A DNA stretch of 64,000 nt from Pratylenchus scribneri (lineage: Eukaryota > Nematoda > Chromadorea > Rhabditida > Pratylenchidae), in NCBI GenBank assembly GCA_030063045.1, contig JAQSEB010000011.1, positions 310,001 to 374,000 on the forward strand, given 5' to 3'. Both the position numbers and the translations under genes were made by a program. This document shows, in pieces, positions 15,300-44,820 of this stretch. The stretch's first letter is position 1; every line of letters begins with the position of its first letter. The notes below the pieces were generated by a model that saw nothing but the letters and a program-made list of their open reading frames with translations, was not told the origin of the DNA and searched no databases.

Positions 15300-16027
15300 G
15301 AATTAAAATGGCCAAAAGAAGAATTCTGCCTCCAATGATTTTTACACATTTTAATTTTGGCAAAATTTTCTTTGTCCACATTTATTCTATTAAAACACAA
15401 TTAAAACTCAAATTTTCAATTTAAACAAAAATTCCCTCTGCTCTGATCTATTTTATTCTTTCATTATATTATTTATCGGATTTATTCCATCAATTAAATT
15501 TGTATCAAATTTTCTGCAATTTTCCATCTAAAAAACAAACATTCCCTGTACATCTTTTGTATAATTTATCAATTATCCATTATTACATCATATTTTATTG
15601 ATTTTACATACACCATCAAAAATTGCATGAATAAAAGTATTTGGATAATTTAATTAAATTAATTTACACATAAAATTTAAGGTTCTTCAAAACCCATTTT
15701 AAGAATTCCTACGGTTTTGAATTTCATCTATTTTCTGAAACCCAAACCCGCTTAACAAACCTAATAAATTCCTATTGAATTCGAAAGTGTCAATACATTT
15801 GGCCATTATAAATGCTAAAATTGAAAACTAAATTAATTTAGATTGAATTTTGGCAGAGGCTAGAAATTTTGCCCAAATATTAGATTTATAAAGTAGTCTG
15901 ATTTGGGCACTTATTATATTCCACGAATTGGATAAATTCGATAAATTTTATGGCCAAATTACTAAATAATATCCAATATATTATCTGCAAAATTTTTGGG
16001 TATTAATCTGCCATAAGAATATTTGCA
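15300..16027. other. AT-rich intergenic spacer
   Basis: 3' flank of the SPRY gene. No coding or RNA signal recognised. Confidence 0.5.
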
Positions 16028-16187
16028 GCTAGGGTTGGCCGAGTACGAGTACTCGATCGAGCACGAGCCAAGTACTCGCCCATTTTTGATACTCGATACT
16101 CGATTTTCCAATACTCGAGGGTTTCGAGTCGAGTCGAGTACTCGGACCCAATACTCGACCGAGCACGAGTATTTTTCACACCCCTTA
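16028..16187. repeat. Short palindromic GAGTACTCG-rich element
   Basis: About 160 bases that stand out by GC content, built of repeated ACTCGA/TCGAGT words (GAGTACGAGTACTCGATCGAG, ACTCGATACTCGATT, TTCGAGTCGAGTCGAGTACTCGG). Begins AGGGTTGG and ends near ACACCCCTT. Strong self-complementarity suggests a MITE or foldback fragment, perhaps hAT-derived. Confidence 0.5.
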
Positions 16188-16283
16188 TTTTAATTAAAAT
16201 TTGGATTTTTCACCACGAAATCCATGAAATTGATATTTTTATGTATGATTTTTAATTTTATATTTGCTAAATTACAGGATGCC

Positions 16284-17969
16284 ATGAAGGATTCAGAGAC
16301 ACCAATCATGCCATTACCTCCACCTCCTCCTCCTCCGGATCTATCAATGCCGAAAACAAAAGGTAGGCTCCTAAGATAAATTTATTCATAATAATATTAA
16401 TTCGATCTGGATAATTAAGATTAATCCCATTTTGGGGAATATTTTTTGGAAAGAAAAACACATTTTGGCAATCATTTTCCTGAATGGAAAACCCATTTTA
16501 GGGAATTTTTTTTTGAAAAGAAAAACACATTTTGGCAATCATTTTCCCGAATGGAAAACCCATTTTGGGGAATATTTTTTTGAAAAGAAAAACACATTTT
16601 GGCAATTATTTTCTCGAATGGAAAACCCATTTTGGGAATATTTTTTTGAAAATAAAAACACGTTTTGGCATTAATTTTCCAGAATGGAAAACCCATTTTA
16701 GGGAATATTTTTTTGAAAATAAAAACACGTTTTGGCAATAATTTTCCAGAATGGAAAACCCATTTTGGGGAAAATGGAAAATGCCTTTTGGGGGATATTT
16801 TTAAGAAAGGAAAAAGACATTTTGGCAATCATTTTCCCGAGTGGAAAATACATTTTGGGGAACATTTTCCGGAAAAATAATGCATATTTTGACGAACATT
16901 GGAAAGGATTTATTTTTTGTGTCTAAATTTCTCTATTTCTGAAGAGCTTATTTTTTGTTCCGGCTAGAATAAATTAGAATATACTCCGGAAAGCTAATTT
17001 TTGTTCCATTTTGAATAAATCCATCTTTTTTAGGAAAGTTGAAAATTAAACATGTCTTGTTTCTCGGATAGATGGAAACTCTAGATTAGTTCAACTTTAG
17101 GATATATTCCTCTTTTTGCTTGGATTAATTCCATCTATTAAATGATTCCATATGCTTGTAGATTAATTCCACTTATTCAAAAGATAATGTAAACGTTAAA
17201 TTATTTTTTCAGTAAAATGTCTCAAATGTCGAGGAAAGACATCAAATGATTCAAATGGTACCGTTAAAGAGACAAGTGCATCTCCAGCGAAATCTAAAGG
17301 CGAGAAAAATTTTTCTTTGTAGATTTTTATTTATTGTAGACTAATTCATCTTCTTTGTAGATTAATTTAGATCTGTGAAAACTTAGATTAATATCACCTA
17401 TTTAAAATTTAGAATAGCTCCGCTTGAAATTTGAGTTAATTCCGGCTAATTAAAATTTAGAATGAGCCTGTCTGATTAAAATATGGATTTGTTCCTGTGA
17501 AAACTGAGATTATCATCACCTATTTAAAACTTGGAATAATTCATCCGGAAATTTGGATTAATTTAGACTGATTAAAACGTGGATCTGTTCCGTCTAATTA
17601 AAACAGATTAATTCTGCCTGAAATTTGGGTTAATTTCAACTGATTAAAACTTGGATTAGTTCCCACTGAATTGGATTCATTCCTTTTGATTTCACTTTTG
17701 TATTTTATAGTTGATCAGCCACATCGTCGTTCACACAGACGTAAATGGTGTATCGAATGTCGAAAAAACATTGTCGAAATGCGTCCGATAGGTTGCAGCC
17801 ATTTCCTGGTGTGTTCGAACCGAAAATGTATGGATGGTACGCTTTAAAAAATCGCGTGAAAAATGTGCAAACCCTCCAAAAATTTCAAGAAATTGTCCAC
17901 TTTACATGCAATCATTGTAAAAGACTAAGCAATTGTTTTCTGGCCGAAATTCCATCGGACGGAAATTGA
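16284..17969 (+). CDS. Small RING-finger protein
   Basis: Exons: 16284-16362, 17213-17299, 17711-17836, 17890-17969. Intron 2 has a GC donor (AAAG|GCGAG), intron 3 is only 53 bases. Exon 1 gives a proline-rich N-terminus (PPPPPP). Exons 3-4 encode a zinc-finger pattern: C-x2-C (WCIEC), x11, C-x-H-x3-C (GCSHFLVC), x4-C, then after the tiny intron C-x2-C (FTCNHCK). This gives the eight ligands of a C3HC4-like RING, though spacing between the middle pairs is compact. Expected role: E3 ubiquitin ligase or ubiquitin-related scaffold. Start chosen at the first in-frame ATG after an ATTACAG acceptor at 16277; a further upstream exon cannot be excluded. About 123 residues in total. Confidence 0.55.
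16430..16885 (+). repeat. Minisatellite, ~62-66-base unit, in intron 1 of the RING gene
   Basis: Seven or so tandem units of the form CATTTTGGGGAATATTTTT..GAAAA.AAAAACAC then ATTTTGGCAAT.ATTTTCC.GAATGGAAAACC. Open in several frames but not coding. Confidence 0.85.
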
Positions 17970-19438
17970 TATCTTTCTAATATTATTCTTTCCTTTCTAT
18001 ATCATAGCAAAAAATTGAAATCAAAAAATTTTAAAATCAAAAAACCTAAAAAAAAATTTTAAAATCAAAAACCCCAAAAAAATTTTAAAATCAAAAAACC
18101 TAAAAAAATTTTTAAAATCAAAAACCCCAAAAAAATTTTAAAATCAAAAAAACTAAAAAAATTTTAAAATCAAAAACCTAAAAAATTTTTAAAATCAAAA
18201 ACCCCAAAAAAATTTTTAAAATCAAAAACCCCAAAAAAATTTTAAAATCAAAAAAACTAAAAAAATTTTAAAATCAAAAACCTAAAAAAATTTTAAAATC
18301 AAAAACCCCAAAAAAATTTTTAGAATCAAAAATCCCAAAAATTTTTAAAATAAAAAATCACAAAAAAAATTTTAAAATCAAAAATCATAAAAAATTTTTA
18401 AAATAAAAAATCCAAAAAAATTTTTAAATCAAAAATCCTAAAAAAATTTTTAAAATAAAAAATCCTAAAAAAATTTTCAAAAATCCTAAAAAATTTTAAA
18501 AATCAAAAATCCTAAAAAATTTTAAAAATCAAAAATCCTAAAAAAAATTTTTAAAATCAAAAATCCAAAAAAATTCTTTTCTATAATAATTGTATGTCTC
18601 ATATCTATTTCTCTTTTAAATATTTGTATGTTTCAAAAAAATTTTTCATAATTATAAAATTTTTCCATTTCCTTTTCTATAATAATTGTACGTCTGTATG
18701 GTTTCTATGTAAAATAATTTTTTCTTATTATTAATTTTAAATAATAAAGGAGTGTACAAAAAATATTTTATTTTTAATATTTCAAAAATAAATGTATCTT
18801 AGGGAATTGTTGATTAAATTTTGTTTTATCTTTGGAATCATATTTTTCGACATAACTTTGCTTGAAAAATTATTAATTTTAAGGATACCAAAGAATCTTT
18901 GAAAATAATTAAAAAATATTTACATTTATGACTCATTTTTCGTTGACATATCATACCGACAAATTTTCATCATACCCTGGTATGAACTATCTGGAATGGA
19001 AATTTTTTATCTCATTTTAATTTTATTGCATTATTCGGTCTTAAAGATATGGTAATGTTTGATTTTGATAGAGGAAAAAGATCTGAAAAAACCAACAAAT
19101 ATTGGAATATGAATTAGAAAAATATCCGCTCTTCACCATAAAAATTATGTATTTATTTAGTATAGAATTATGTTCTTATTTTTTTCCTCTTATTGTTGGA
19201 AGAATGTAACATAAATAATAATCTCTTTGAAAATGAGATGGCATCTTTTTCTCTTCTCTTGAAAATTCCGTCGCCTTAAGAGAATTTTTAATTTTCTTTA
19301 CAAAATTAATCACATGAAATTTGGTAGGCTATTGAAAATTTTTTATTTCTTGGATTTCCGAGGATCCAATCACAAATTTTTAAGTCAAAAATGTATTTAC
19401 AATATAAATTTATTCAATTACAATAAAATGAATAAAAT
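17970..19438. other. AT-rich spacer between RING gene and the polymerase gene
   Basis: Contains the A-rich array at 17998-18580. The rest (18.6-19.4 kb) is AT-rich with no exon. The left end of the virus-like island must lie here, but no terminal inverted repeat or target duplication was recognised. Confidence 0.5.
17998..18580 (+). repeat. Low-complexity tandem array, ~20-base unit
   Basis: Repeated TTTTAAAATCAAAAACCCC plus a run of A, degenerating to ATCCTAAAAAA towards the 3' end. Confidence 0.85.
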
Positions 19439-22400
19439 TTAATTAACATAACCAAAGTCTCTTACAAAATAATCTTCAGTGATAATTCCTTTACCCACAT
19501 ATGGTTTGTAGATTTTGACCATTGGTCTCGAGATGATTTCTCCTTTATTAACAGCTGGTCTGATGAATCTGGGATAACATACTGGAATGTGTTCGACTTC
19601 ACCACTCTCGGCATACTTCAAGACACTTTTTTTAAAGGTGTCATAACACAATGTGTTGCTTATTATTTCACTATTTAGTGTGATCCCTCTGACTTTTAGA
19701 CTATAACTTATCTCATTAGTCCTATTGTCCCTCAGCATTAATCCGTATTGTTTGGCCCCGCCAGAAACATATTCGATGATGCTTTTTCCTAGATATTCAT
19801 CTGTTAAATCGCCCAAATGTGGTCCGATTGACAAAGGATTGTTATCTACCGGGTGCGAAAATATAATTGAGTCGGTATCGCAATACAGAAGTTGGGACCC
19901 TTCCGATCTGGCGACTTTCTTCATAGCATCCAAAAGTATCAATCTTGCTTGACTTGTCGTCCACAACGATATTATAATATTTGAGCAATTGTGTTCCTCT
20001 ACGAATTCATTTTTGACTTGGTAACTTATCAAAATAGTCTCATCTGTTAGCATGTTTATAGAATTGACTTCAATTGTTCGATCTTCCAAATATTTTCGTA
20101 ATAAGGCTGGAGAATCTGTGATCATTGTCTTTACTAATTGATTTCTCAATGAGAATCGCCCCCAAAGATTATTGGCACATAGCTTCGCAATAAATCGTTT
20201 CCCTTTGTTTGGTATCATCTTTTCTCTTTCTATTTTGATATTAAAACTTTCATCGCATTCTTTGATGAATTTATCTTCATCTTCTCTGGTTTTAATTTGC
20301 TCCGGGAAACCACTTGCATGAATTTTCATTGCTAAAAATTCGGCGACATATCCTCGAAATAATTTTGAATCGGTTGAAGTGAATTCTAAAACACGGTAAA
20401 CTTTGACGACCTTGTAATTCTCCTTCAAGGCGTAATTTAATTCTATAGATGTACATGAGGATATCCAGCCTCTCTCTTGATCAGTATGATGGCAGCTATA
20501 ATCCTTTATGACACCGCCATTTGGGTATTTTAGAGAACAAGCTCGGCATAAAGGAAATAAAAGTCGATCATCAAACTTCATTGGTAATACAGGCACATCA
20601 ATTTTTCTTGGTGGTATTACAAATACTTTGAGAAGAGCAATTTTATAAGGATTATCTTCTGGTTTTTGCCATAAGACATTCTCATTCAAAATATGTAATT
20701 CTGGATGTCCAATTGGATACTCAGTCACGAAATTTGTATAGGGATAGAGTGAAGTGAAGTCATAATACGATATTTTCTCTCCTTCTTTTGTCTTATGATA
20801 AATTTTAAAGGGACCTGTCCGGCCACCAAAGTAGCAATTTCTGATATTAAGTGGTCCTTCATCGAGATATGAGTCAAAACATTCCTTCATTTGACGATCT
20901 TTACTGAGCATATCGGTAATCTCGCACTCCCAATAAACCTTGACGTTAGGTATTTGACTTTTGATAAAATTCATTCTCAATTTATCCAATTGCCTGATTT
21001 TTCCTGCGGTTTTCCCCGATGGCATCATAAAATCATCTTCGGGATAATGAATTGGACAAGCATGCCAAACACAACCATTGATTTCTAAAGCCAAATTTTG
21101 TTCTTCTATATATCCGTCTAATTTAAATTGTCCACATTTATATTCGCCACCTTCCGAAAGACATGTCCTTATCGTTACATTATGCTTTTCTGCATACCAT
21201 TTTAAAAACTTTAAAGCCAATAGGCTTTGATTTTCGGCACTATCATATCCACGTTCTGGCGTTATTCCCAAATGATTTTCGGGTAGATGATTCATTCGGA
21301 AATGGCGCATACATCCACTTGCGATTGTAATTCCGTCATGTAAAATATCAATTCCATCTCCAGTTGGTTTCTTCCACCTTCCCCAAAGGCTATTCGCTGG
21401 ACAATTTGCGATCATTTTGAATTTTTTCGATTTTTTTCTGCTACTCAATTCAAAGAATTCCTCTCTGAAGGCAACTAATGCACTGCATAATATTTCTACA
21501 TCATTAACACAATATTCTGCCAATTTTTCATTTAGATTGAAAGGTTGATTTTTATTATCTTCATAATATTTATTAAATTTTGCTCTCTTAGCTGGCATCA
21601 TTCCGGCTACCATATAATCGCTTGAAGGCGGTAAGGAAGGTAGAATTTTATCATAATTAAAGGGATTATTTGCCAAATGAGGAAAAAATAATTTTTCCTC
21701 AATATCCAAACCAAATGCCGACACAAGTGAGTCCAATGAAATTGGCGTCAAATTGTAAGAGTCTTTGAAGGTTATATCCGGATTTTTCCCACTCCTTGGA
21801 ACGTTCATTTGATAAATTTTATTTCCTTTTTTAATCATAGATGGACTATGGCCAAGTTTGAATATTTCTTTGAAGGTCAAAATGTGATCAAAACGACCAC
21901 CATAATGAGCGAAGCAAATTGATTTGTAATCAATGGAAAATTTATAAAGTATCCAATTAACGAATTCTTTTAGTGGATATTCTGTAATTATTTGACGATC
22001 AACTATAGTTTCTGTAAATCCTCTTTGAGAGAAAGTTATCATTCTTGCATCGCCGCAAATTTCACAATTATTATTTTTTAGGCTTTCGTTATATTTTAAA
22101 TTCGCAATACATTTTGTACATATTACTTTGAGTGCAATAAAATTGACGTTGTGTCTATATCTATCCGGATATTTTTCTGTGTCAATACTTTGATGTTGCA
22201 TAGTCTCTACGTCATATACTAGGATACGATAATCTTTATGATTTTTCGGTGTTAATTTTTGTATGTAGCAACCTCGCTCTGGTTCATGATAACTTCGGCA
22301 AGTATAACACCATCTTTCGAGACACGAATGCCCATTTCTACCGTTTTTTGTATTGTCATTGACATCATAAATTTTCCCGCAAACATCACATTGTTTAGAA

Positions 22401-23551
22401 AGTCGGCAAACTGAACCATTATTTGAAATATGATGATTAAAACAATCGGGGTTTGTAAATGTTTTCTTGCAATCCTCGCAAAATTTTATATAACCAAGAA
22501 TAATTGGGCATGGGAATGATTGTCCCTGTCTTGTACAATTTAAACATCTTGTTTTGCATTTTTTACTATGGTTTCTTTTGTTGTCGAAAGGAGTTTCACA
22601 AGATAGACAATAGTTTTTTCTTCCGAATAATGACGCAATATTTCTTACTCCATCAAAATGATCGCCATTATGATAAAGAATTATCGGCGTGTTATATTCT
22701 GATGAACCATATTTGAAAATAGGCTTATAATTGCCCAGATCGTTGAATATGAAGAGTTTAAATCGTCGTTCCTTAGCTGTTTTATTCCAATGATCAATTA
22801 CAATTGGTCCATATTTCACCGCGTCATATATCTTTTGTCCACGGGGGATAGAACATTTATGCATTAGTTCATAGACATCCTTTTCCAATTTTCCGCTTTC
22901 TTCTTTTATTCCATTATGATATCGAAAAAATTTCCACCGCGCATCCATATTTTGTAAGACATACTTTTTAGTTAATTGTAAGGCGTAAAATAAACAATAC
23001 GAATCTTGATTCTCCACTTTAATTAAAGTCTTGACGTTGATACAGTGCTTTACAGCTAATTTTTTAGCTTTTCCTTTGCCTCGGATCGTAAGATGCTCTT
23101 CCAATGAATTTTTATCCAATACGGTGATACTGACGGTAAAAGGTTCACCTAGAAGTGAACCCTCCTCTTTGGACTGGGAGACAAGTAGGAAACGATTCAA
23201 AATTGTGTCCAATGTGTTGTCCGTTATTTCTCGGACGGGAATCCATATATCCGGGTCTAACAAAGGAGAAGAAATCATAGCACCAAGTCGATCTCCTTCA
23301 ATATTTTTCTTCTTACATTCCTCTAATGCTTCATCAATACATCTTTGAAATATTTGTGATAATAATACTTCCGGATCCTCAGGCAAATTTTGAATAACAA
23401 ATTTCGTTTTTGATTGAAGACATTTGAATTTTTGGTTCATGTCGATATCCGAATCAATTAGTTTTACGTAATCATCAACCGATTTTCCTTCATTTTCCGT
23501 TTCATCGTTTTCATTTAATCTTTGCTTTTTACTTGGAGGAGGTCCTTCCAT
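19439..23551 (-). CDS. Protein-primed family-B DNA polymerase, Polinton-like, 1370 aa
   Basis: Replicates the element from a terminal-protein primer, by family. One uninterrupted ORF. Residues 68-145: domain shared with the gene at 4.4-5.9 kb. Residues 315-420: cysteine-rich region with several CxxC pairs. Exonuclease motifs: ExoI D447-V-E449 (LVYDVET), ExoII FAHYGGRFD (547-555), ExoIII Y680-x3-D684. Residues 801-835 hold a restriction-endonuclease-like insert (GGEYKCG.FKLDGY, LALEINGCVWHAC), known from Polinton-type polymerases of animals. YFGG at 907-910 matches the YxGG motif. Polymerase motif A D931FTSLYP, motif B K1123-x3-N-N-x-W-G (usual form NSxYG, so two substitutions), motif C Y-C-D1225-T-D1227-S, KxY at 1267-1269. 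All catalytic acids are present, so the enzyme may be active. An AATAAA on this strand lies just past the stop. Divergent from the innexin. Confidence 0.95.
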   Translation of the reverse strand: MEGPPPSKKQRLNENDETENEGKSVDDYVKLIDSDIDMNQKFKCLQSKTKFVIQNLPEDPEVLLSQIFQRCIDEALEECKKKNIEGDRLGAMISSPLLDPDIWIPVREITDNTLDTILNRFLLVSQSKEEGSLLGEPFTVSITVLDKNSLEEHLTIRGKGKAKKLAVKHCINVKTLIKVENQDSYCLFYALQLTKKYVLQNMDARWKFFRYHNGIKEESGKLEKDVYELMHKCSIPRGQKIYDAVKYGPIVIDHWNKTAKERRFKLFIFNDLGNYKPIFKYGSSEYNTPIILYHNGDHFDGVRNIASLFGRKNYCLSCETPFDNKRNHSKKCKTRCLNCTRQGQSFPCPIILGYIKFCEDCKKTFTNPDCFNHHISNNGSVCRLSKQCDVCGKIYDVNDNTKNGRNGHSCLERWCYTCRSYHEPERGCYIQKLTPKNHKDYRILVYDVETMQHQSIDTEKYPDRYRHNVNFIALKVICTKCIANLKYNESLKNNNCEICGDARMITFSQRGFTETIVDRQIITEYPLKEFVNWILYKFSIDYKSICFAHYGGRFDHILTFKEIFKLGHSPSMIKKGNKIYQMNVPRSGKNPDITFKDSYNLTPISLDSLVSAFGLDIEEKLFFPHLANNPFNYDKILPSLPPSSDYMVAGMMPAKRAKFNKYYEDNKNQPFNLNEKLAEYCVNDVEILCSALVAFREEFFELSSRKKSKKFKMIANCPANSLWGRWKKPTGDGIDILHDGITIASGCMRHFRMNHLPENHLGITPERGYDSAENQSLLALKFLKWYAEKHNVTIRTCLSEGGEYKCGQFKLDGYIEEQNLALEINGCVWHACPIHYPEDDFMMPSGKTAGKIRQLDKLRMNFIKSQIPNVKVYWECEITDMLSKDRQMKECFDSYLDEGPLNIRNCYFGGRTGPFKIYHKTKEGEKISYYDFTSLYPYTNFVTEYPIGHPELHILNENVLWQKPEDNPYKIALLKVFVIPPRKIDVPVLPMKFDDRLLFPLCRACSLKYPNGGVIKDYSCHHTDQERGWISSCTSIELNYALKENYKVVKVYRVLEFTSTDSKLFRGYVAEFLAMKIHASGFPEQIKTREDEDKFIKECDESFNIKIEREKMIPNKGKRFIAKLCANNLWGRFSLRNQLVKTMITDSPALLRKYLEDRTIEVNSINMLTDETILISYQVKNEFVEEHNCSNIIISLWTTSQARLILLDAMKKVARSEGSQLLYCDTDSIIFSHPVDNNPLSIGPHLGDLTDEYLGKSIIEYVSGGAKQYGLMLRDNRTNEISYSLKVRGITLNSEIISNTLCYDTFKKSVLKYAESGEVEHIPVCYPRFIRPAVNKGEIISRPMVKIYKPYVGKGIITEDYFVRDFGYVN

Positions 23552-23598
23552 TTTTATTTAATTTTTTGGAATAAAATGAATATTTGGTTAAATTTTTC

Positions 23599-23609
23599 GT
23601 TTATAAAAT
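23599..23609 (-). promoter_or_regulatory. TATA box of the polymerase gene
   Basis: ATTTTATAAAC on the minus strand, about 50 bases upstream of the ATG at 23551. A GGGCGGAGC box (complement of GCTCCGCCC) lies directly upstream at 23618-23626. Confidence 0.5.
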
Positions 23610-23615
23610 ATGAAT

Positions 23616-23694
23616 AAGCTCCGCCCTAATTTAAGATTTTTATTAAAACGAAAAATAAGCTCCGCCCTAAATGGGCGTGGTCTAGTTTATATAA
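23616..23694 (+). promoter_or_regulatory. Divergent promoter with repeated GC boxes and innexin TATA
   Basis: Two copies of AAGCTCCGCCCTAA (23616-23629 and 23657-23670), then GGGCGTGG (23673-23680) and TTATATAAC (23687-23695). The boxes can serve both the polymerase (-) and the innexin (+). The TATA position, about 40 bases before ATG 23733, argues that the innexin starts there rather than at the earlier in-frame ATG 23610. Confidence 0.55.
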
Positions 23695-23732
23695 CTAGAA
23701 TTCTTACTTCCAATACCTTCAAACTTATCAAA

Positions 23733-24860
23733 ATGTGGAAAATCCCATTCCTAGGAGAATCCGTCTTAAAAAGATTTAAACCTCAATCAACCGATGACTT
23801 GACCGACTTTTTAAATTTCATATTTACCCCTTCAATATTTGCATTTTTTGCAATACTCATCTCGGCTAAACAATATTTCGGCTCTCCAATCGAATGCGCC
23901 ATTCCGTCCCATTTTAATTCAGGTTGGAAAGACTACTCTCATGAATATTGTTTCACGCACAAAACTTATTTTGTTAAAATGGACGAACAAATTCCTCCAT
24001 TAAAAGACGTCAGAAAATATAGTCAAATTCATTACTACCAATGGGTCCCTATTATTTTGGCTCTACAATCCTTCATATTCTACATTCCTTCAATCATCAG
24101 GCAATGTTTAAATAGGAATTTTGGACTTAATCAAATCATCTCGTCATTTGATGATGTGGTATGGCAAGCTTATTCACTTCGTAAATTAAATGAAATTGCA
24201 TCGTTCGTCAAAATGCTCTCGGATCGTGCGAAAAAATACAGGTCGTTGGGTTATATTCTCATATTCCTTAACCTAATATCTATATTGAATATTACTTCTA
24301 TATTTATATTAATAAAATGTATAACAATTCTGAATATTTTATTTAATTTCATCTTTTTAACTTATATTATAGGTAAGAAAGATATTTTCTGGGGCTATAG
24401 GATTCTTAAATTTCTATTTTACGGTGAAGAAGAAAATGTAAAATTTTTTCCTTATATTACATTTTGTGATCTTACTTTCAAAGAAATGGGAGCCAATCAT
24501 GACTACACTTTACAATGTCTTCTCCCTATCAATATACTTAATGAAAAAGTTTTTATGTTCATTTGGTTCTTTCTTATAGCCTTATTTTTTATCAATGTTA
24601 TATATTTTATCAAAAGTTTGATATCCTTATTAATATTTAGAAATTATCAAATTGTAAAATGTCTTAAGGGATTCAATGTATCCGATGTCAATCAATTCAA
24701 GAAAGTCTATCACTTTGATTATAATATTATTTTGCAAATCCTATCCAATAGGTATGGAATCCCACTTGCATGTGAATTTATGCAAGCCTTATTTAATGTA
24801 CATCGTCCAGAAATCATGCGACAAATTGCTCAAAGAGATCAAGATGTTCCAGATGTATAA
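23733..24860 (+). CDS. Innexin, intronless, in virus-like island
   Basis: Gap-junction channel subunit of invertebrates; four membrane helices, plasma membrane. The frame is open from ATG 23610, but homology to innexin N-termini begins at MWKIPFLG (23733), which also fits the TATA box, so I choose 23733 (375 aa). Family marks: FAILISAKQYFGSPIEC after helix 1 entry; first extracellular loop cysteines in PIEC and EYC; the signature YYQWVP at the start of helix 2; second extracellular loop FPYITFCDL....G..HDYTLQC with its cysteine pair, followed by LPINILNEKVF and helix 4. Length is normal for the family, no frame break. Host innexin genes have introns; this one has none over 1.1 kb and sits between ORFs with the same promoter style. 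It parallels the vinnexins of polydnaviruses. Likely captured by the element from a worm-like host. Confidence 0.93.
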   Translation: MWKIPFLGESVLKRFKPQSTDDLTDFLNFIFTPSIFAFFAILISAKQYFGSPIECAIPSHFNSGWKDYSHEYCFTHKTYFVKMDEQIPPLKDVRKYSQIHYYQWVPIILALQSFIFYIPSIIRQCLNRNFGLNQIISSFDDVVWQAYSLRKLNEIASFVKMLSDRAKKYRSLGYILIFLNLISILNITSIFILIKCITILNILFNFIFLTYIIGKKDIFWGYRILKFLFYGEEENVKFFPYITFCDLTFKEMGANHDYTLQCLLPINILNEKVFMFIWFFLIALFFINVIYFIKSLISLLIFRNYQIVKCLKGFNVSDVNQFKKVYHFDYNIILQILSNRYGIPLACEFMQALFNVHRPEIMRQIAQRDQDVPDV

Positions 24861-24886
24861 GAAGTCGTGGCTTTGATAAAAAATTA

Positions 24887-24914
24887 ACTCCGCCTATTTT
24901 TTACCCTATATAAA
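24887..24914 (+). promoter_or_regulatory. GC box and TATA for the ORF at 24962
   Basis: ACTCCGCCT (24887-24895) followed by CTATATAAAT (24906-24915), about 50 bases before ATG 24962. Same order and spacing as in front of the innexin. Confidence 0.5.
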
Positions 24915-24961
24915 TATTTATTTTCTATTATTTTGACTTAGTTGAAATAAAAATTTTAAAA

Positions 24962-25393
24962 ATGAATTCTCTCCCTTATTTATTAGGTTTCAAATTTTTC
25001 CCAACACAATTGATTATTAGAAGTGATTTATTGAGTGGCAATTACATTATTAAATTTGATGATAAGATATTCAGAAATAACAACGCAGCTCTTACTGTTT
25101 ATTTCAACATAAATAAAAATTATATTAAAATTTCAAACAGTTTAAATCAAGAAAAAACAATTATTGAAATCTCTGACAATTCAGAATTACCCGAACTCTT
25201 TTCAATTCACGTGAATTTTCATGGGGGTTTTCATTATCTACAATTTAACCAGCTTTATGGATTCTTCCGTATTGAAATGAAAGAAAATGGACTAATAAAA
25301 TGTCTGGAATACGGTCAAAATAATGAACAAGAAACCTCATCGGAATTAAACGAATTATCATCTATTGTCGATCAATGTCTGAATATCCAATGA
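24962..25393 (+). CDS. ORFan, 143 aa, beta-rich; weak galectin-like pattern
   Basis: Intronless ORF 101 bases after the innexin stop, with its own GC box and TATA. Predicted to be mostly beta strands. A weak resemblance to the galectin fold exists (FPTQLIIRSDLLSG, ALTVYFNIN, KISNS, FSIHVNFHG, IKCLEYG), but the sugar-binding H-NPR and W-G-E residues are not visible, so this is only a suggestion. No signal peptide or membrane segment. Function unknown. Confidence 0.65.
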   Translation: MNSLPYLLGFKFFPTQLIIRSDLLSGNYIIKFDDKIFRNNNAALTVYFNINKNYIKISNSLNQEKTIIEISDNSELPELFSIHVNFHGGFHYLQFNQLYGFFRIEMKENGLIKCLEYGQNNEQETSSELNELSSIVDQCLNIQ

Positions 25394-25432
25394 AAAAACT
25401 ATGAGAAAAGAAATTTATTACAGAATACTTTA

Positions 25433-25774
25433 TTAACAATGTACACATATATTATCATTAACCGGACAAATTTTTATGTCTTCAAGATGTAAATAAAAAA
25501 ATTCGTCATAGATCGTTCCATCATCATAAATATTTTCATAATAATATGAATTGTCAATTTTATTTGCAATGCATAGACAAATCAAATGTTCCGAGTTCGA
25601 AGGAACAATATCCAAGATAATTATTTCCTTTATATGCTTGAAAAGTTTTCCATTTGGATGTGCACATCGATAAGGTGGTATTCGTATATTCGAGCCGTTG
25701 AGACTTATAATTCTATTCAAGTCTTGTCTTGTAGAGCATTTGTGAAAGTCCATAAAATAATATAATCCATTCAT
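25433..25774 (-). CDS. ORFan, 113 aa, cysteine-containing
   Basis: Intronless minus-strand ORF converging on the previous one with 39 bases between stops. Ends in ..ICVHC; eight or so cysteines are scattered (KCST, RCAHP, LICLC, KICPV, ICVHC), with no standard zinc-finger spacing. Acidic C-terminal half. A TATA (minus strand GACTATATAAGG, 25809-25820) lies about 40 bases before the ATG. No family recognised. Confidence 0.6.
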   Translation of the reverse strand: MNGLYYFMDFHKCSTRQDLNRIISLNGSNIRIPPYRCAHPNGKLFKHIKEIIILDIVPSNSEHLICLCIANKIDNSYYYENIYDDGTIYDEFFYLHLEDIKICPVNDNICVHC

Positions 25775-25810
25775 TTTATTATTAGAATTTAAAAAATTTT
25801 TTGATTCTCC

Positions 25811-25818
25811 TTATATAG
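25811..25818 (-). promoter_or_regulatory. TATA box of the 113-aa ORF
   Basis: CTATATAA on the minus strand, about 40 bases upstream of the ATG at 25774. No GC box recognised here. Confidence 0.4.
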
Positions 25819-26156
25819 TCTGGAAATTCCCTAGATATTCATTTCTTTCTTGATTACTACACAATTATTAATTCAACAAAGATAATACTCTAAAATTTCA
25901 ATATTAATGAAAACGGATATTTGAGTTCATTCAATAATTCTAGTATTTTTTATCAAAACTGATTATAAATGGAAGGAAAATATCAAAGAAAAAATCTATT
26001 TGGAAGATGACAAAATAAAAATATTTATGTTAAGAAGTAGTCATTTTAAGGAGAAATCTTACAATATTAAGAATAAGAAGATTATTTTTCCAAAAATATA
26101 ACAATTAGAAGATGATTTTTTGAAAAACTAATATAAAATATGTATAATACCATATT

Positions 26157-26179
26157 CGGCCTGGGCCCCGGCCACCGCC

Positions 26180-26211
<32 letters not shown>

Positions 26212-26219
26212 CGGGCGAT
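26157..26219. repeat. GC-rich CCG-triplet block
   Basis: About 60 bases of nearly pure G+C: GGCCTGGGCCCCGGCCACC then roughly ten CCG units and CCCGGGCG. It abuts the stop codon of the PAZ ORF (TGGTAAATCGCC). Composition is utterly unlike the surrounding AT-rich DNA. Could be a true triplet repeat, an insertion scar or an assembly artefact. Confidence 0.8.
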
Positions 26220-26762
26220 TTACCATCTTTGAGTGAATAAATTGCGTCCCCAATCGTGTGATGCACATTCTTTGAAGTCTTCCTCTTGAGATTCATCCAT
26301 GATCAGTTTTGGGGAATTGGATTTTGTTGATTCCTTACTCTTCGTGGATTGAATAATTTTTGTCGGTAGGAATGTCCTCAGACCAATTTCGTCGATATTC
26401 AATTCGAGTAATTCAAGTGGGTAATAGTGGTCTTCTCCCTTAACGAATTTTTTCACAGCGCAATGATTATATGGGAAGAGTAATTGAATACGATGTTTTG
26501 TGTAAAAATATTGCGCCACCGAAGAATTGTAAACTTTTCGAAGTTTACCAAAAGCTGGCATTTCATCTGCTCCTTTCTCGGTAATTTCAGTAAAGGAAAA
26601 TGAATGTTTGAAGCCGTTTTTATCTTTGTAAGTTGTTGTCAAATTGCAGCCGAAGAATTTTAAACTCACCTTCTTTCGTATCTCTGGATGATTAAGATGA
26701 TCGCGAAGATCCTTTACACGGCATTTCAAAAAGTCTGCAATTGCTTGGGAGAAGAGAACCAT
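26220..26762 (-). CDS. Stand-alone PAZ-domain protein, 180 aa
   Basis: PAZ domains bind the 3' end of small RNAs in Argonaute and Dicer. This ORF consists of a PAZ domain (about residues 8-122) and a short serine/lysine-rich and acidic tail; there is no PIWI, MID or RNase III part. Visible marks: FLKCRVKDLRDHL, LKFFGCNLTTTY, FSFTEIT, SSVAQYFYTKHRIQLLFPY and DHYYPLELLEL, matching the 'V..YF...Y.I.L..P......G....YYP.E+' core of Argonaute PAZ. Intronless, between an ORFan and a divergent small basic protein. Upstream are a TATA-like element and a CACCC box (26843-26859). Stop is directly followed by the GC block, so a longer original C-terminus cannot be excluded. A role in countering or redirecting RNA silencing is inference. 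Confidence 0.85.
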   Translation of the reverse strand: MVLFSQAIADFLKCRVKDLRDHLNHPEIRKKVSLKFFGCNLTTTYKDKNGFKHSFSFTEITEKGADEMPAFGKLRKVYNSSVAQYFYTKHRIQLLFPYNHCAVKKFVKGEDHYYPLELLELNIDEIGLRTFLPTKIIQSTKSKESTKSNSPKLIMDESQEEDFKECASHDWGRNLFTQRW

Positions 26763-26839
26763 TATAGTATATTTGGTTGGGAATTGTTCGAAAGGAATTT
26801 TGGAAGGAAATGAATGATATAGAAGGAGAAATTCTAATC

Positions 26840-26972
26840 TTTTATATTAGACACACCCACATTGGACACAAATGTCTAACCAATTCTCTGGAATAATTTT
26901 GGTCTAGCCACGCCCTTTTTTCCGATTTATAACTTAGCCACACCTTTTTTTCCAAATTCTAAGCCACGCCCT
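26840..26972. promoter_or_regulatory. Divergent promoter region between PAZ and basic-protein ORFs
   Basis: Minus strand: CTAATATAAAAGA (26836-26848) with GGGTGTGTC beside it (26851-26859), about 85 bases before the PAZ ATG. Plus strand: three spaced copies of a GCCACRCC box at 26907-26915, 26937-26944 and 26963-26971, each followed by a pyrimidine run. Confidence 0.5.
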
Positions 26973-26978
26973 CTTTAA

Positions 26979-26988
26979 CTATATAAAG
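26979..26988 (+). promoter_or_regulatory. TATA box for the SPKK-rich ORF
   Basis: CTATATAAAG directly after the third CCACGCCC box and about 70 bases before ATG 27058. Confidence 0.5.
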
Positions 26989-27057
26989 TCGGAGTTTTCC
27001 TCATATTTTCCTCATTTTATCCCAAAAAATTTTTAAAAATAATTTTCTCTTATAAAA

Positions 27058-27273
27058 ATGTCCCCAAGTCCAAAATCTCCCAAAGCTCCAAAATCTCCAA
27101 AATCTCCTTATGACCGAAAGAAATCATCCTCTCCTAAAATTCAGAAAGTGACCAAGGATCTATCCCCACCCACTACAAATATGATTCGTATTTTTGGATT
27201 TGATTATTCCTTCCAATTTGACTTATCCATTCAATTATTTGTATTTCCACAGCAAATCCACCCATTATTTTGA
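27058..27273 (+). CDS. Small basic SPKK-rich protein, 71 aa
   Basis: First half is built of S-P-K repeats (MSPSPKSPKAPKSPKSPYDRKK), like the minor-groove-binding tails of linker histones and some viral core proteins; second half is hydrophobic and proline-containing (FGFDYSFQFDL). Strong TATA and GC-box promoter. A DNA-condensing or virion role is possible but unproven. Confidence 0.5.
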   Translation: MSPSPKSPKAPKSPKSPYDRKKSSSPKIQKVTKDLSPPTTNMIRIFGFDYSFQFDLSIQLFVFPQQIHPLF

Positions 27274-27729
27274 TCTTACTTATATGAATTTTATTGCCTA
27301 TATATTTCTTAATAAATTTGTCTCCTATAAATAAACGCAAAATAATCTTAATTGTCAGTAAAAAAAGTTTTTAATATTTTTAATAAAATATAAAAAATGT
27401 GAAAATGATTGGAAAATTATTTAGCAGAAAATAAATTCATCAGAGAACAAATTGCGTTGATTTTTATTATTTTTATTGATGAATTTTAGGGGGAAAATTG
27501 ATTGATAATTTCGGACTTAAATGGATGGATTTAAGTAGAATGCATTGAAAAATGTATGCCGCACTTTAATATGGGGGGAAATATATAGGATAAATCAAAA
27601 ATATGATAATTAGGAAAAAAACAAGGCATTTAAGTGGATTAATGGATAAATTGAAATTAAGCAAAATATATTTAAAATTGGCAAGTAAATAAAATTAAAA
27701 TGGTGGGTCTGATGAAAAATGACATTTGT
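27274..27729. other. AT-rich spacer, right border zone of the virus-like island
   Basis: No ORF or terminal repeat recognised. The right end of the element should fall here, before the MAGI stop at 27730. Confidence 0.4.
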
Positions 27730-29063
27730 TTATATTTTCTGCCTCCTTAGCACCAATCGAACTTGTTGCCTCTCTTTGATTAGCCCAATTGCCCGTTCAT
27801 GAGTCATTCCATCCGTCGATTCGCCGTCAATTTCCATCAATTGATCGCCAATCTGAATTTATTGGAAAATATACATTTCAATGCCAACAATGCCTAAGGA
27901 CCTTTCCTATTTGTCCTACTGTACCCCCACTTTTTGCCTAATCGCCTGTAACGTAACCCTATCAATCAAATATTGCCCCAATCTACCTTTTAAACCCGCC
28001 CCTTTCCTTTTCTAAAATGCCTTTTCCCCTTCACATTATTATCACATTTTTCCGTACAATTAATAAAAAATAACCCTATCCCGTTCTTTAAGGCGTCCGG
28101 AAAAGGCCCGGGGCGAGAGCCTAAAGTCTAAAGCCTAGATCCAGCTTTCACCCCAAAAAACTTTAACCCTAGATTAGGACTACAAAATTATTTTATTTTT
28201 TTTGTACCTGCATTGGACTTCCAGCCGCAGGCCCATCATCGGCAATTCGAAGGATGAACAAGGGCATGCCAAATTCGGAACCCCCGCGGATCGAGAAGCC
28301 AAAACCGCGGTCGGCCCTGCGCAATTCCATCTGGATGATGGAATAATAGGGCGAAGATGTGGTTGAACATTGGGAAGAGGAATGATGCTGGAGGGCATCC
28401 TGTGGAAGGGAATATGGTATTTTTATTTATTCAAATACAGTATTTTTGATTTCATGCTACCGTACGACACGTGGTAGTAAGTGACTAGGATGGACTGTGG
28501 AAACAAAAAGCTAAGCAAATGGTTTTTCTTTTTCATCTAATAAATTTTGGCTAAAATCAAAACATTAATCGGTGCCTTTTGCTATCATTTTATAAGTAAT
28601 TTTTGGTCTAAAAAGGACACTTATAGAATATTAATTTGTTCCAATTTATTGTTCCTTTTTTGCCAATTTTTGAACAAAAGTAATTTTAAAAAGTCATAAA
28701 AATATGTATATCCTTCAAAATGAATTATTCATTTGAAAATTAACCAATTTAATTCTTCCCTTTTTAAACTGACCGCACTTCTTCGCCCTCCTCCACCAAT
28801 GCTACTTCCACTGCCCCCAATCGCCGGATTGTTATGGTCTCGGACCAAACTGCCTCCTCTATTCATTCCATAAATGTCCCCAACACCATTTGCCCCCGTC
28901 ACTCCATTCTTTGGGCCCAATCGAGCATAATTGGCCATTGGGGAATCGATTGAAGAGGATTGGCCATCGCCCATTCCTCCTCCCATTGATGGGCCCTTTC
29001 CATTGTTTGGGTCAATTGTCAGTGTCAATTGATTGCCGGCGCTTCGAATAAATTGAAGCACTT
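27730..29063 (-). CDS. magi-1: MAGI-type PDZ scaffold, C-terminal exons (partial)
   Basis: Membrane-associated inverted guanylate kinase family; junction and synapse scaffold. Three exons: about 28774-29063 (end of one PDZ domain, [18 protein letters not shown], then a Gly/Ser-rich linker), about 28208-28390 and 27730-27855. The last two form a complete PDZ domain: [26 protein letters not shown], then after the intron [22 protein letters not shown] and VRLVLRRQ. This matches the last PDZ of MAGI proteins. Stop follows the domain directly, so there is no long tail. Earlier exons (guanylate kinase, WW and other PDZ domains) were not found upstream on this strand; they may lie behind very long introns, or the copy is partial. 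An intron holds copy A of the dispersed repeat. Confidence 0.75.
27879..28160 (+). repeat. Dispersed repeat, copy A
   Basis: Begins CAATGCCAACAATGCCTAAGG, includes the core CTACTGTACCCCCACTTTTTG and a GC-rich 3' part (GGAAAAGGCCCGGGGCGAGAGCC). Lies in a MAGI intron. Related to 43053-43230, 44544-44820 and 48441-48557. Confidence 0.75.
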
Positions 29064-32000
29064 GCTGAAAAATAAAATGAATACGTTTTGTGAATATTTT
29101 ATATATTTGGAATGGACAATGAATGCTTTTAAACAATTAAACTTTTAAATATAAAAAATAAATATTATTTTGGCTATTTCTAGCGCTCAAAATTAAATGT
29201 TAATGCCCCCAGGGTTAATGTTGATTATTTTTTTATTTTTAGAATTATTTAAAATTTAACAATAAATTAAATCAATTCGATCAATTTGAAGCAATTTTCG
29301 TGGATTTTTATTTGAAATTTGCTCAAATAAGAAGCAATTGAAGCGGCAACAAATTCATCAAAAGGGGAGGGAACAAAGATTTGTGCGGAGATGAAAGAAT
29401 TTTGGGTGGTTGAATTCGGCGACGGGTGGTTGTTCCATAGGTTAAGAATGGATTTATCTTGGATCGGTCGGGGATGGAAGAAATTGATTGGTCCGCGATG
29501 GCTCGCCCCCCAAGGGGAATTGAGGAGGTGGACGGGATTTTGGAAGGGTTGATTAGGGGTTGAGGCGATGGATGGGCACAAGGAATGGACGAGGATGAAG
29601 CCCAAAAGCATGGGGGAAAATGGATGGAAAGACGCCGAACTGGCTAGTGGAAGGTGGTCGTCGGTGGTCATCGATGGAAGAAAAGGAGGATTGGGTGTTA
29701 CCCTCGAAGGGATGATTCAAATTGTTGAAGGGCTTATTTTGTGAGGTCGTCGGTCATTCGCCCTGGGTTAAAAATTTCCCTTTCTCATCGCAGAAGAGAA
29801 AGGTAAATTTCCCTTGGGGCAATATTATTCTTTATTTTTGAATTTTAAATCGAATATATTTAGAAAATTAAATCAAACATGGATTTAGATAAATGCCAAA
29901 AATTATGTCGAATATACAATTAATTAACAAATTGAGGGTCAAGAAAAGAGAAATTTAGAATATATTAAATTGAATAATGAGGAAATAATTAATAAATTAA
30001 TTAATTCCAATGATTGAACTGATGGATAAAATAATTCGGGGATGCTTTTCAATTATAGAGGGAAGAGGTATATTTTGATCACGATTTTTGGGTAAATCAC
30101 AGATGAATGGATGGATTGCATGAATAGTGGTGGTCAATTTGCCCACAAAAGTTTTGTCCGGCCGCTCAAGGGCACTTATTGGGAGGATTGGCGCATGCGC
30201 AACGAATCATATTACAACGAAAAGCAGCAACAAAGGGGGGAGGATAGTTTGGATGGAATTGGTGGGATGAAAATGGATTTGGGCGTGGGAATAATATGGA
30301 GAAAAGGGGATACGTAATTTTTACGTGAAAAATGCTTGCAAAAGCTAATCTGTTTAAGCATAAGAATTTGGAAATTTGATAAAAAAAAATGTAAAAATGC
30401 GCATTCATCCTATTAGAAAATTGGCTAATGAAAGAATCCTTTATTAGCTAATTTTATGTTATTTACCAAGGAATTCTTTAAATAAGATAAATTTTTAGTT
30501 GAATCCGGAACAGAATCGAATAAAAGAAGCATTAAAGAGGATGGAAAATATGTTGTAGTAAATAAAATGGAGAAATCGCGTGCAAAAAAAGTTGTCGATG
30601 CTTTTCCTCCCCATTATCATCAGCCAATCCAACAACCAATGGATTGGAGGATGACTTGAGTAGATGGGGGATGGAGGCCCAATTATTATTGGGAAAAAAT
30701 GGGGGAAATGAAGTGAAAATGGGGGGAGAAGGAGGTGGAACCTTAGATTGGATGGAATATTGGCAGCCGAAACAAAATTGAATGCTTTTTGATTTACATA
30801 TTGGTGGAAGGGTTTAATGGCATTAAAAAGGCATTAAATGGGGCCAAAATAAATGAATTATTCATTCAAACATAAAAATTGGCTCTAACTCTAAATATTC
30901 TGCTTTTAAAATGTGTTTTGAAGGTGGTTGGATGGATTGAATAAAATTGATTTATCATTTGGCCAATCCATCCATCCATATGGCCAATTCGCCCTTTCAT
31001 CATCCATCCACCTTTCTCTTTGCTTTTTATTATTTGTTTTGTTGGCCAACCCAACCATCGGTGACCCCGTTCATCCTTCATCATCGCATTGCTCATCCAT
31101 CGTCCCTTCCCTTTTGATGATGATGGCCAAAGCCTTCCGCCGAAGGCCGTCCGTTTGGCCATCATCTTTGTCCCCTTCTTCCAATGGACGAAGGCCAAAA
31201 GGATGAAAGGCAAAATTGGAAGGGGTAAAAGATGAAGAATGTAAAAATATTGAAGGGTGATGGAAAGCGAATGGCAATGAAGAATGAGGAAATGGGGAAT
31301 GACTTATCGAAGATGATTTGAATTGAATGAATCGATGGATGATGAACGGAGGATGAAGGAGGAGGAAATGGTGCGCACCATCGCCGATTATTATTCCGGC
31401 GGAAGGTCAAAGCCAAAAAGGTGGGCGGAAGGAGGACAAATGTGAATATTAAGAATGAATTTGGCTATAAAATTTGTACGAATTGAAGGGTAGAGGGCCG
31501 ATGACAATTTTAGTTTTTGGAATTTTGCCAATTTTTTCGTCCAAGATTGAATTGGATTTTGTGGAATATTTTAAATTGAAAGTCCGGCCATATATGAGGG
31601 AAAATTGGAAAATTACTTTCGCCCAATGAATGAAATGAATGAATGACCACCGCGACGACCATTTGGCATTGATTTGTTTGAGTGAAGGTGAAATTGGAGA
31701 AAAGTGGGCACAGAAAATTGCAATTATTTATCCCTGGGACCCTTTCAGATGGCAAAAAGTGGCCAGCAGGTGGGATGGGGGCGGGTACGATGGGTTGAAG
31801 AGGGCCGAAGGTCATTCCCATTGGACCGGATCCAATTCAATCCCCAACCACTTTCCATTGGAAAGAAGGACCAAAATGAATGAGGAAATGGATGGAAATG
31901 GAATGCCAATGGACGCAAATTGGAAGGGTAAATGGAAGAAGAAATCTGACCTCCGAGAAATGAGGAGGGAGTGGGAAATAAGGCCACATTCATTGATGGA

Positions 32001-42694: not shown

Positions 42695-43420
42695 ATGAAT
42701 TTTAGCTGCGGTCCAACAAAAAAATTTTGCCATGTTTGCCGAAATTGGATCGACGTTATGGACGAAAAAGTTCAATGTGAAAAATTCACAAGTAAATTTT
42801 AAGAAAATTATTCCAAAAAAATATTTCTCCAAAAAGTGCACAAATCCTGCTTTAAATGCGCCATTTGTGAATGCCAATTGCAACCGGGGAGTTGTTCTCG
42901 AGATGATGGGCTCATCAATTTACAGGCAAATATTTATTCACCAAATTTATCTATATTTTGGGAAAAATCCAAATTTTAGTAAGGATAATCCCTTTCTTAA
43001 TCAAATATTAGTTTATTAGTCCATCATAATCTAGTGTGCTTATTTGTTTAAGGCGAGAATGGGCCTAGGCTCCTCAATCTCGGGCCCTCACCGGAGGCTT
43101 AATAAGCCCCCAGTGGCCCAAAGAATGGGATAGGGACAAAGGGGAAACTACGGTACAGGCGATCAGGCAAAAAGTGGGGGTACAGTAGGAAAAATAGGAA
43201 AAGCCCTTAGGCATTATCATTGGCATTGAGAGAGTGTCAAATTACAAAATAAAAATATTAAAAATAATTAATTATTTTGCAGTTTATGCACGATGAACGA
43301 TCGCCAATTTGGTTTTGCCATACACATATGATGTTGGGATCGGGCGAAAAATACAAAATGTTACAACAAAAATACGGTAGTGGAAGGAAGGCTTTGCAGG
43401 GCAAAAATGAAAAGAATTGA
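42695..43420 (+). CDS. Single-LIM-domain protein
   Basis: Exons 42695-42792, 42838-42925, 43283-43420. Intron 1 is 45 bases; intron 2 has a GC donor (TTACAG|GCAAAT) and carries copy C of the dispersed repeat. The product is about 107 residues: FCHVC (first C-x2-C), 18 residues, then after the intron H-x2-C-x2-C-x2-C (HKSCFKCAIC), and in exon 3 the closing C-x2-H (WFCHTH). This is a complete LIM zinc-binding domain, a protein-interaction module, followed by a short basic tail (YGSGRKALQGKNEKN). Start chosen at MNFSCGPTK after a CAACAG that may be a trans-splice site; the frame stays open further upstream. Confidence 0.65.
43053..43230 (-). repeat. Dispersed repeat, copy C
   Basis: Reverse complement of the family core: TACGGTACAGGCGATCAGGC, AAAAAGTGGGGGTACAGTAGG and GGCATTATCATTGGCATTG. 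Lies wholly within intron 2 of the LIM gene. Confidence 0.75.
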
Positions 43421-44543: not shown

Positions 44544-44820
44544 ACAATGCCAACAATGACTAAGGGTCTTTTCTTATTTGTCCTACTGTGCCCCCACTTT
44601 TTGCCTAATCGCCCGTACCGTAGCACTTTTCAATCAAATATTGCCTCAATCTGCCTTTTTGACCTATTGCTTTTTACCCTTCAAATTATTATCGCATTTT
44701 CTGGAACAATTAATAAAGAATAATCTAAAGACGAGTTTCGCCTTCATCCCTATTCCGTTCATTGGGCCAATGAGGGGAGGCCTCTGGCGAAGGTCCGGGG
44801 CAAAATCCTAGGCCCAACTC
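44544..44820 (+). repeat. Dispersed repeat, copy B
   Basis: Same order as copy A: CAATGCCAACAATGACTAAGG, CTACTGTGCCCCCACTTTTTG, TCAATCTGCCTTT and a GC-rich end with GGCCAATGAGGGGAGGCC. Confidence 0.75.

Follow-up and report, generated by a model that had tools for sequence, protein, structure and literature searches.

Positions 16276-27159 of a 64,000-nucleotide stretch of the Pratylenchus scribneri genome (GCA_030063045.1, contig JAQSEB010000011.1, positions 310,001 to 374,000 of the forward strand; hereafter, the window) are very probably a recently copied, truncated internal piece of a provirus of the Polinton/Maverick lineage, from a family that carries a cassette of an innexin gene and a PAZ gene. 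Five open, intronless reading frames were found in the fragment, encoding a family B DNA polymerase, an innexin, proteins of 143 and 113 amino acids (aa), and a PAZ-domain protein. A preliminary description of the window had outlined a compact virus-like genome of six uninterrupted open reading frames (ORFs) at 19439..27280. Five of those frames are real, and the sixth is the start of a truncated gene. The extent was drawn too narrowly, as shown by comparison with the twin copy C198, which continues past both edges; the locus is thus a fragment cut at both ends rather than a compact genome. The five genes are as follows.

19439..23551, - strand: protein-primed (Polinton-type) family B DNA polymerase, with an open frame of 1370 aa; PF03175 DNA_pol_B_2, 3.3e-42.
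23733..24860, + strand: innexin, 375 aa, intronless, with an in-frame upstream ATG at 23610; PF00876, 5.9e-67; INX-6, 4.8e-35.
24962..25393, + strand: gene for a 143-aa protein, function unassigned; own-frame codon score best, 8 loci in the genome search.
25433..25774, - strand: gene for a 113-aa protein, function unassigned, common to a second Polinton-like lineage; 54 matches in the genome search.
26220..26762, - strand: stand-alone PAZ-domain protein, 180 aa; PF02170, 6.2e-5, under the curated cut-off; no other Pfam family.

The genome searched comprises 227 Mb in 276 contigs, and copies are labeled by contig (C198, C5, and so on). For the polymerase, 72 of 317 candidates were scored, giving 72 loci after listed rows were merged; this list is incomplete. 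For the other genes and domains, the best candidates were scored: 150 of 244 for PAZ (147 matches), 109 of 202 for innexin, 150 of 603 for rve (integrase), 150 of 300 for the capsid candidate, 150 of 298 for the protease, and 150 of 293 for the chromodomain. PAZ linkage was counted on the 101 strongest of the 147 matches, with the 46 weakest counted separately.

The innexin and PAZ genes belong to the element, as the preliminary description had proposed. The long-ORF innexin set comprised 27 listed matches with E ≤1e-20 whose open frame spans 225 aa or more, some of which carry stops. All 27 lie within 5.5 kb of a PAZ gene. A listed polymerase occurs within 20 kb of 23 of them and a listed capsid candidate within 20 kb of 24; the window copy is among the three with no listed capsid candidate at that distance. 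Another 67 innexin rows were listed, and seven were set aside as fragments of element copies. The remaining 60 include no match as near as 5.5 kb to a PAZ gene and a single one within 20 kb. For a random point, the probability of a listed PAZ copy within 20 kb is 0.018. Among the strongest PAZ copies, a listed capsid candidate is found within 20 kb in 92/101 and a listed polymerase in 55/101. Listed polymerases have a capsid candidate within 20 kb in 58/72 cases and a PAZ gene in 56/72. Co-occurrence of both genes with the polymerase in other copies, on which the earlier single-element view was staked, therefore holds within this genome. In a typed subset of clusters, 15 contained all five genes, and 11 of these share one order, running from the capsid candidate through protease, PAZ, and innexin to the polymerase. 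The four exceptions (C2, C41, C50, and C110) are rearranged. Fuller copies also contain small genes. Innexin and PAZ are both animal gene families, and three exon-sized host-type innexin matches have 41-42% identity to the N-terminal part of the element innexin. That host genes came to lie beside a polymerase relic by chance, with no element unit, is nevertheless scarcely credible given the 27/27 linkage, the order recurring across many contigs, the intronless frames, and the shared edges.

The element family has kept the innexin and PAZ genes under selection. PAZ and innexin protein distances correlate across 16 loci (r 0.961, reached in 0/9999 permutations; the loci are related, so this is not a strict probability). 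The ratio of nonsynonymous to synonymous substitution rates (dN/dS) of the innexin is 0.09-0.14 in 7/11 pairs; of the remaining four pairs, one is identical, two have infinite dS, and one has a dS of 2.8 (ratio 0.14, not trusted). PAZ dN/dS is 0.04-0.35 in 12/12 pairs. It is improbable that these are domesticated viral genes in a fragment cut loose from a Polinton, with the host keeping the innexin and PAZ genes for a use such as small-RNA regulation or cell coupling. The window copy lacks the protease and capsid-candidate genes and its five frames are still open, and for 3/27 innexin copies, among them the window copy, no capsid candidate is listed within 20 kb. However, C198 is so similar that the window copy is too recent for its open frames to be evidence of selection, and low dN/dS is general across copies.

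The limits of the fragment were set by comparison with C198, which covered window positions 16276-19587 and 22233-27159; positions 19588-22232 lie outside the pieces compared. Identity is 98.9% in the piece with the repeat-rich left arm and 99.7-99.9% in the compared gene part. Beyond the edges, C198 was read for 585 bases on the left and ~3 kb on the right, and no colinear match to the window was found in either. The following features define the fragment and its edges.

16276..27159, no strand: whole element-derived fragment; alignment to the C198 flank pieces L083 and L084 ends at both points.
16276..16379, + strand: 3′ remnant of a proline-rich element gene, ~33 codons and stop, start absent; the longer ORF is L083:177-686 (+) in C198.
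16423..18575, no strand: left-arm minisatellite arrays with units of ~33/67, 122, and 26/53 bp, common to C198, C5, and C55.
27058..27159, + strand: first 34 codons (5′ end) of an element gene of 126-133 aa, truncated here; the frame continues in six other copies.

A diverged relative of the proline-rich left-edge gene lies at L086:753-1478 (+). The six other copies whose right edge was read (C198, C5, C55, C110, C127, and C50) all run on past position 27159, a point that all of them have in common with the window. The window frame at the right edge encodes 71 aa (27058-27273), and what follows its first 34 codons is not element sequence in these six copies. Both edges fall on AGGAT. This motif is element sequence in C198 and for that reason is not read as a 5-6 bp target duplication; it may instead be a short homology used in rearrangement.

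The preliminary description noted that integrase, ATPase, protease, and capsid genes were missing. They are absent from the window copy, but the protease and the capsid candidate are absent because the copy was cut short. Past the right edge, C198 encodes a putative adenain-like protease with weak matches to Peptidase_C5 (0.0019) and C48/Ulp1 (0.0033), both under the Pfam cut-off; its best PDB match is the cysteine protease S273R at 0.093. The twin probably encodes an adenain/Ulp1-type protease. This gene has 155 matches in the genome search. It is followed in C198 by an ORF with a membrane-type stretch (by eye) and then by a 453-aa ORF, of which 227 aa were read; this last ORF has 151 matches in the genome search. 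The 453-aa ORF is a candidate capsid gene, so labeled for its place beside the protease, its neighborhood near integrase and ATPase genes in sister elements, and its presumed resemblance to F54H12.2-like proteins. Integrase or chromodomain genes and an A32-type ATPase are the usual Polinton company of a capsid gene. In a sister lineage, defined as all 39 listed capsid-candidate rows with 38-44% identity, a listed rve match lies within 5.5 kb in 29/39; across all 150 listed capsid-candidate rows, rve is found within 20 kb in 29 (82 of 150 rve rows used). Sister-lineage capsid candidates lie within 12 kb of a listed chromodomain match in 38/48 cases, and at C33 and C155 an A32-type ATPase match is near the capsid candidate as well. 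The polymerase B match and the presence of protease-like and capsid-candidate genes in other copies bear out the earlier description of a Polinton-like element.

Several results weigh against this placement. The search of fuller copies for capsid and integrase genes, suggested earlier, yielded the capsid candidate; for rve, the 101 strongest PAZ copies have no listed match within 20 kb and two within 25 kb (best 150 of 603 rve candidates). The capsid candidate has no match in Pfam, PDB, or IMG/VR, and no tool names it. The FtsK/A32-type ATPase PF04665 has 15 matches, one of which (C142) lies ~12 kb from a PAZ copy (by eye). No terminal inverted repeats were found in the window copy, which is truncated at both ends, and none scored above shuffles around the coordinates of the preliminary description; as the window copy is a fragment, none is expected. 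The AlphaFold model of the PAZ protein is poor, with a predicted local distance difference test score (pLDDT) of 38.6. Database relatives of PAZ and innexin come from contigs without a named organism, plus one mollusc innexin, and none was found among the named Meloidogyne or Globodera proteins recovered by the polymerase search.

A related non-Polinton agent is an unlikely alternative: a linear episome or plasmid with a protein-primed family B polymerase (pPolB) that has dropped its integrase and lives partly as tandem arrays. It would fit the lack of rve near the PAZ copies, the failure of the genome search to find any tyrosine recombinase, and the equal spacing of copies in C63 (~20.1 kb) and C138 (38.4 kb). 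Against it, the protease and capsid-candidate genes argue for a virion stage, a chromodomain match lies within 12 kb in 2/101 strong and 5/46 weak PAZ copies, and the rve and chromodomain counts rest on the best 150 of 603 and 150 of 293 candidates. Within the Polinton lineage, the absence of integrase may be real for the whole group of PAZ-bearing elements, as far as the best 150 of 603 rve and 150 of 293 chromodomain candidates show.

The polymerase has 140 relatives in the protein database. The top match is from Meloidogyne (53% identity across 98% of the length), the closest named relatives are from tylenchomorph nematodes (Meloidogyne, Globodera, and Heterodera), and some relatives are annotated as DNA polymerase. 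In an alignment of 17 sequences, D447, E449, D555, D684, and D931 are invariant and D1225 and D1227 nearly invariant; we read these as probable polymerase motif residues. C186 is invariant and H298 nearly invariant, and both precede the exonuclease. Polinton pPolB carries TP and vOTU domains, according to the portion of PMC11071308 consulted. The enzyme described here is likewise long, and a conserved Cys and His precede its exonuclease at the place of the Polinton vOTU domain, the likeness to vOTU consisting of these residues only. Protein-primed copying is the natural reading of the conserved acidic residues and of the Cys and His at the vOTU position, and the polymerase presumably replicates the element in this way. 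A PHROGs scan returned a DNA polymerase match plus weak matches, and an NCBIfam scan gave no match. A search of IMG/VR with the polymerase alignment found six loci, with the match confined to query residues 803-895. These residues look like an inserted nuclease domain, and a PHROG of unknown function matches residues 811-878. Other IMG/VR scans, with polymerase, PAZ, innexin, and capsid candidate, confirmed nothing.

PF02170 is matched by 17/18 members of the PAZ family, and the family profile finds the Argonaute-1 PAZ chain 1r4k, which we take to be from fly, at 9.9e-8 in PDB. The sequence match to Argonaute PAZ structures (1r4k and 1si2) extends across most of the domain; unlike Argonaute, the element protein stands alone, and its length across 21 copies, 177-279 aa, does not suffice for a complete Argonaute. 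PAZ database relatives have 78, 61, and 58% identity, and one innexin in the database is 70% identical to the C60 group. A GCC-repeat tract of ~14 units (26165-26211) lies directly beyond the PAZ stop codon in AT-rich surroundings.

The innexin start is most likely 23733 rather than 23610, given the length of its relatives (336-375 aa) and the presence of a TATA-like site 45 bp upstream. Four cysteines are invariant (C96, C114, C286, and C303, numbered from 23610). Codon usage trained on the polymerase places the 143-aa, 113-aa, and PAZ ORFs highest in their own frames; this is not so for the 71-aa ORF at the right edge. The innexin scores 11.4 in its own frame versus 37.8 and 23.2 antisense, so its identification rests on homology. 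In 300 simulated sequences, chance ORFs of at least 113 aa occurred in 2.3% and of at least 143 aa in 0.7%.

The preliminary description had also inferred private promoters, and promoter-like TATAWA was found 43-84 bp upstream of all six starts; it is present in 19% of random 150-bp host windows. The sites are as follows.

23600..23605, - strand: TATA-like site of the polymerase gene, 54 bp upstream of the start.
23688..23693, + strand: TATA-like site of the innexin gene, 45 bp upstream of the start.
24907..24912, + strand: TATA-like site of the 143-aa gene, 55 bp upstream.
25812..25817, - strand: TATA-like site of the 113-aa gene, 43 bp upstream.
26841..26846, - strand: TATA-like site of the PAZ gene, 84 bp upstream.
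26980..26985, + strand: TATA-like site of the truncated right-end gene, 78 bp upstream.

Three occurrences of the motif CCACGCCC/GGGCGTGG were counted in the fragment and none in 40 kb of host DNA. For a looser GC-box pattern the densities differ little, at 0.55 per kb in the fragment versus 0.38 per kb in the host.

The mode of action that we propose is that of a virus-type genome free of introns, in which every gene is preceded by a TATA-like site and whose protein-primed polymerase would copy it. Like the vinnexins of ichnoviruses, the innexin would form host-membrane channels that change cell coupling or the membrane potential; by analogy, a vinnexin-like channel is our best guess for this protein. 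The PAZ protein would bind the 3′ ends of small RNAs or compete with Argonautes, weakening small-RNA silencing of the element, and interference with Argonaute silencing is likewise the best guess that we can infer. Together, the innexin and PAZ set suggests a viral toolkit for handling the host. It is also possible, if somewhat doubtful, that PAZ serves the element itself, for example by binding viral RNA, and is not a silencing antagonist. The tyrosines of the Argonaute pocket are partly replaced (in the window copy by H or F; by eye), which would suit such a role; against it stand the clear PAZ match and the reliance of nematodes on small-RNA silencing of mobile elements. Building on the preferred role as antagonist, a broader scenario is offered tentatively: a tylenchomorph Polinton lineage would have captured an Argonaute PAZ domain and turned it into a free-standing silencing antagonist, would hold beside it a swap slot for an innexin or an ADP-ribosyl-cyclase-like gene, and would spread among nematodes in the absence of a classical integrase.

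Nematode Polintons with a distinct pPolB were reportedly described by Jeong et al. in 2023, and the polymerase side of the present element may be known there. The pairing of an innexin with a stand-alone PAZ protein in the Polinton lineage was not found in the literature searched, with most subscription papers outside its scope, and is apparently new; nematode Mavericks with host-type cargo and viral innexins are already known. One listed article, on butterfly oogenesis (PMC3654919), mentions both Maverick and innexin. A meeting-report passage on work by Widen (PMC10680173) describes nematode Mavericks/Polintons that carry wosp proteases and krma kinases as cargo, along with a fusogen and an integrase. 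Those elements are similar in being virus-like transposons with DNA polymerase and capsid genes (a candidate here) and acquired host-type cargo. They differ in that the cargo here is innexin and PAZ and no integrase was found nearby among the best 150 of 603 rve candidates.

Vinnexin expression depolarizes haemocytes and reduces encapsulation (PMC8402728, in the part available), and ichnovirus vinnexins are intronless (PMC7016691, likewise in part). The element innexin shares with vinnexins an innexin domain, four conserved cysteines, an intronless gene, and linkage to viral genes; the portions of both sources consulted regard these intronless viral innexins as derived from animal hosts (PMC8402728, PMC7016691). 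Vinnexins reside in wasp polydnavirus genomes, whereas here the innexin lies beside PAZ in a nematode element of the Polinton lineage. The endogenous nimavirus Nimav-1_LVa (280 kb) encodes the innexin g155 in four exons, according to the same excerpt of PMC7016691. It is likewise an invertebrate endogenous DNA virus with a captured innexin; it differs from the element described here in being a 280-kb nimavirus with a four-exon gene, compared with an intronless gene in the Polinton lineage.

Two host-type genes in an animal virus-like transposon bear on how such elements withstand nematode small-RNA silencing, and on why unrelated invertebrate DNA viruses (ichnoviruses, nimaviruses, and now a Polinton lineage) repeatedly capture innexins. 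The 27/27 linkage and low dN/dS make both questions directly testable. With its many open copies, a single genome offers a natural series in which capture, cassette exchange, and truncation can be dated.

The 143-aa protein was modeled as beta-rich with low confidence (pLDDT 43.2); a galectin-like reading, made by eye alone, was dropped. For the 113-aa gene, 30 of the 54 matches are relatives elsewhere with 64-73% identity, and 18/30 of these lie within 12 kb of a listed chromodomain match, suggesting that cassettes have been exchanged between Polinton lineages. A 176-aa gene weakly similar to ADP-ribosyl cyclase (PF02267, 0.011) takes the place of the innexin in many PAZ copies that lack one. 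It matches PDB 9ro8 at 0.0075, and four plant light-harvesting chains rank above 9ro8. This gene is present at L041:671-1198 (-) and in 25 further copies at ≥94%, as if one cargo slot were common to it and the innexin. An ORF at L029:2950-3339 (+), with a weak FLYWCH zinc-finger match (0.0031), adjoins an innexin-PAZ copy and has a relative in L028.

Rearrangement within copies was read as follows.

19365..26000, no strand: segment inverted relative to the ends in some copies; junction of 19365/19377 to 25990/26000 read in C110, C127, and C50.

The breakpoints are near-identical in these three copies (segment 19.37-25.99 kb), and the other junction of the segment, 19338 to 25992, was read in C127 and C176. 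In C127 and C176 (440 kb), the innexin match is a 36-residue remnant only. C55 contains a tandem repeat of ~4.28 kb that includes the block from the innexin through the 143-aa and 113-aa genes to PAZ. PAZ copies are equally spaced in the manner of tandem arrays in C138 (three at 38,409 bp) and C63 (three at ~20,145 bp). The left flank of the C127 copy has a Serpin match, under the cut-off (L087:185-631 (+), 5.1e-5), of host or element origin.

Six-frame Pfam searches of each flank (14500-19438 and 26763-31700) found nothing besides one host exon, which lies outside the element.

27751..27858, - strand: exon of a PDZ-domain gene, the host neighbor on the right; PF00595, 7.5e-5.

Short tandem repeats in the host part of the window give rise to long frames on both strands at 62321-63057 and 7776-8936. 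A dispersed repeat of 80-120 bp (88-96% identity) occurs there in both orientations at 27878-27997, 43149-43229, 44545-44659, and 48435-48555.

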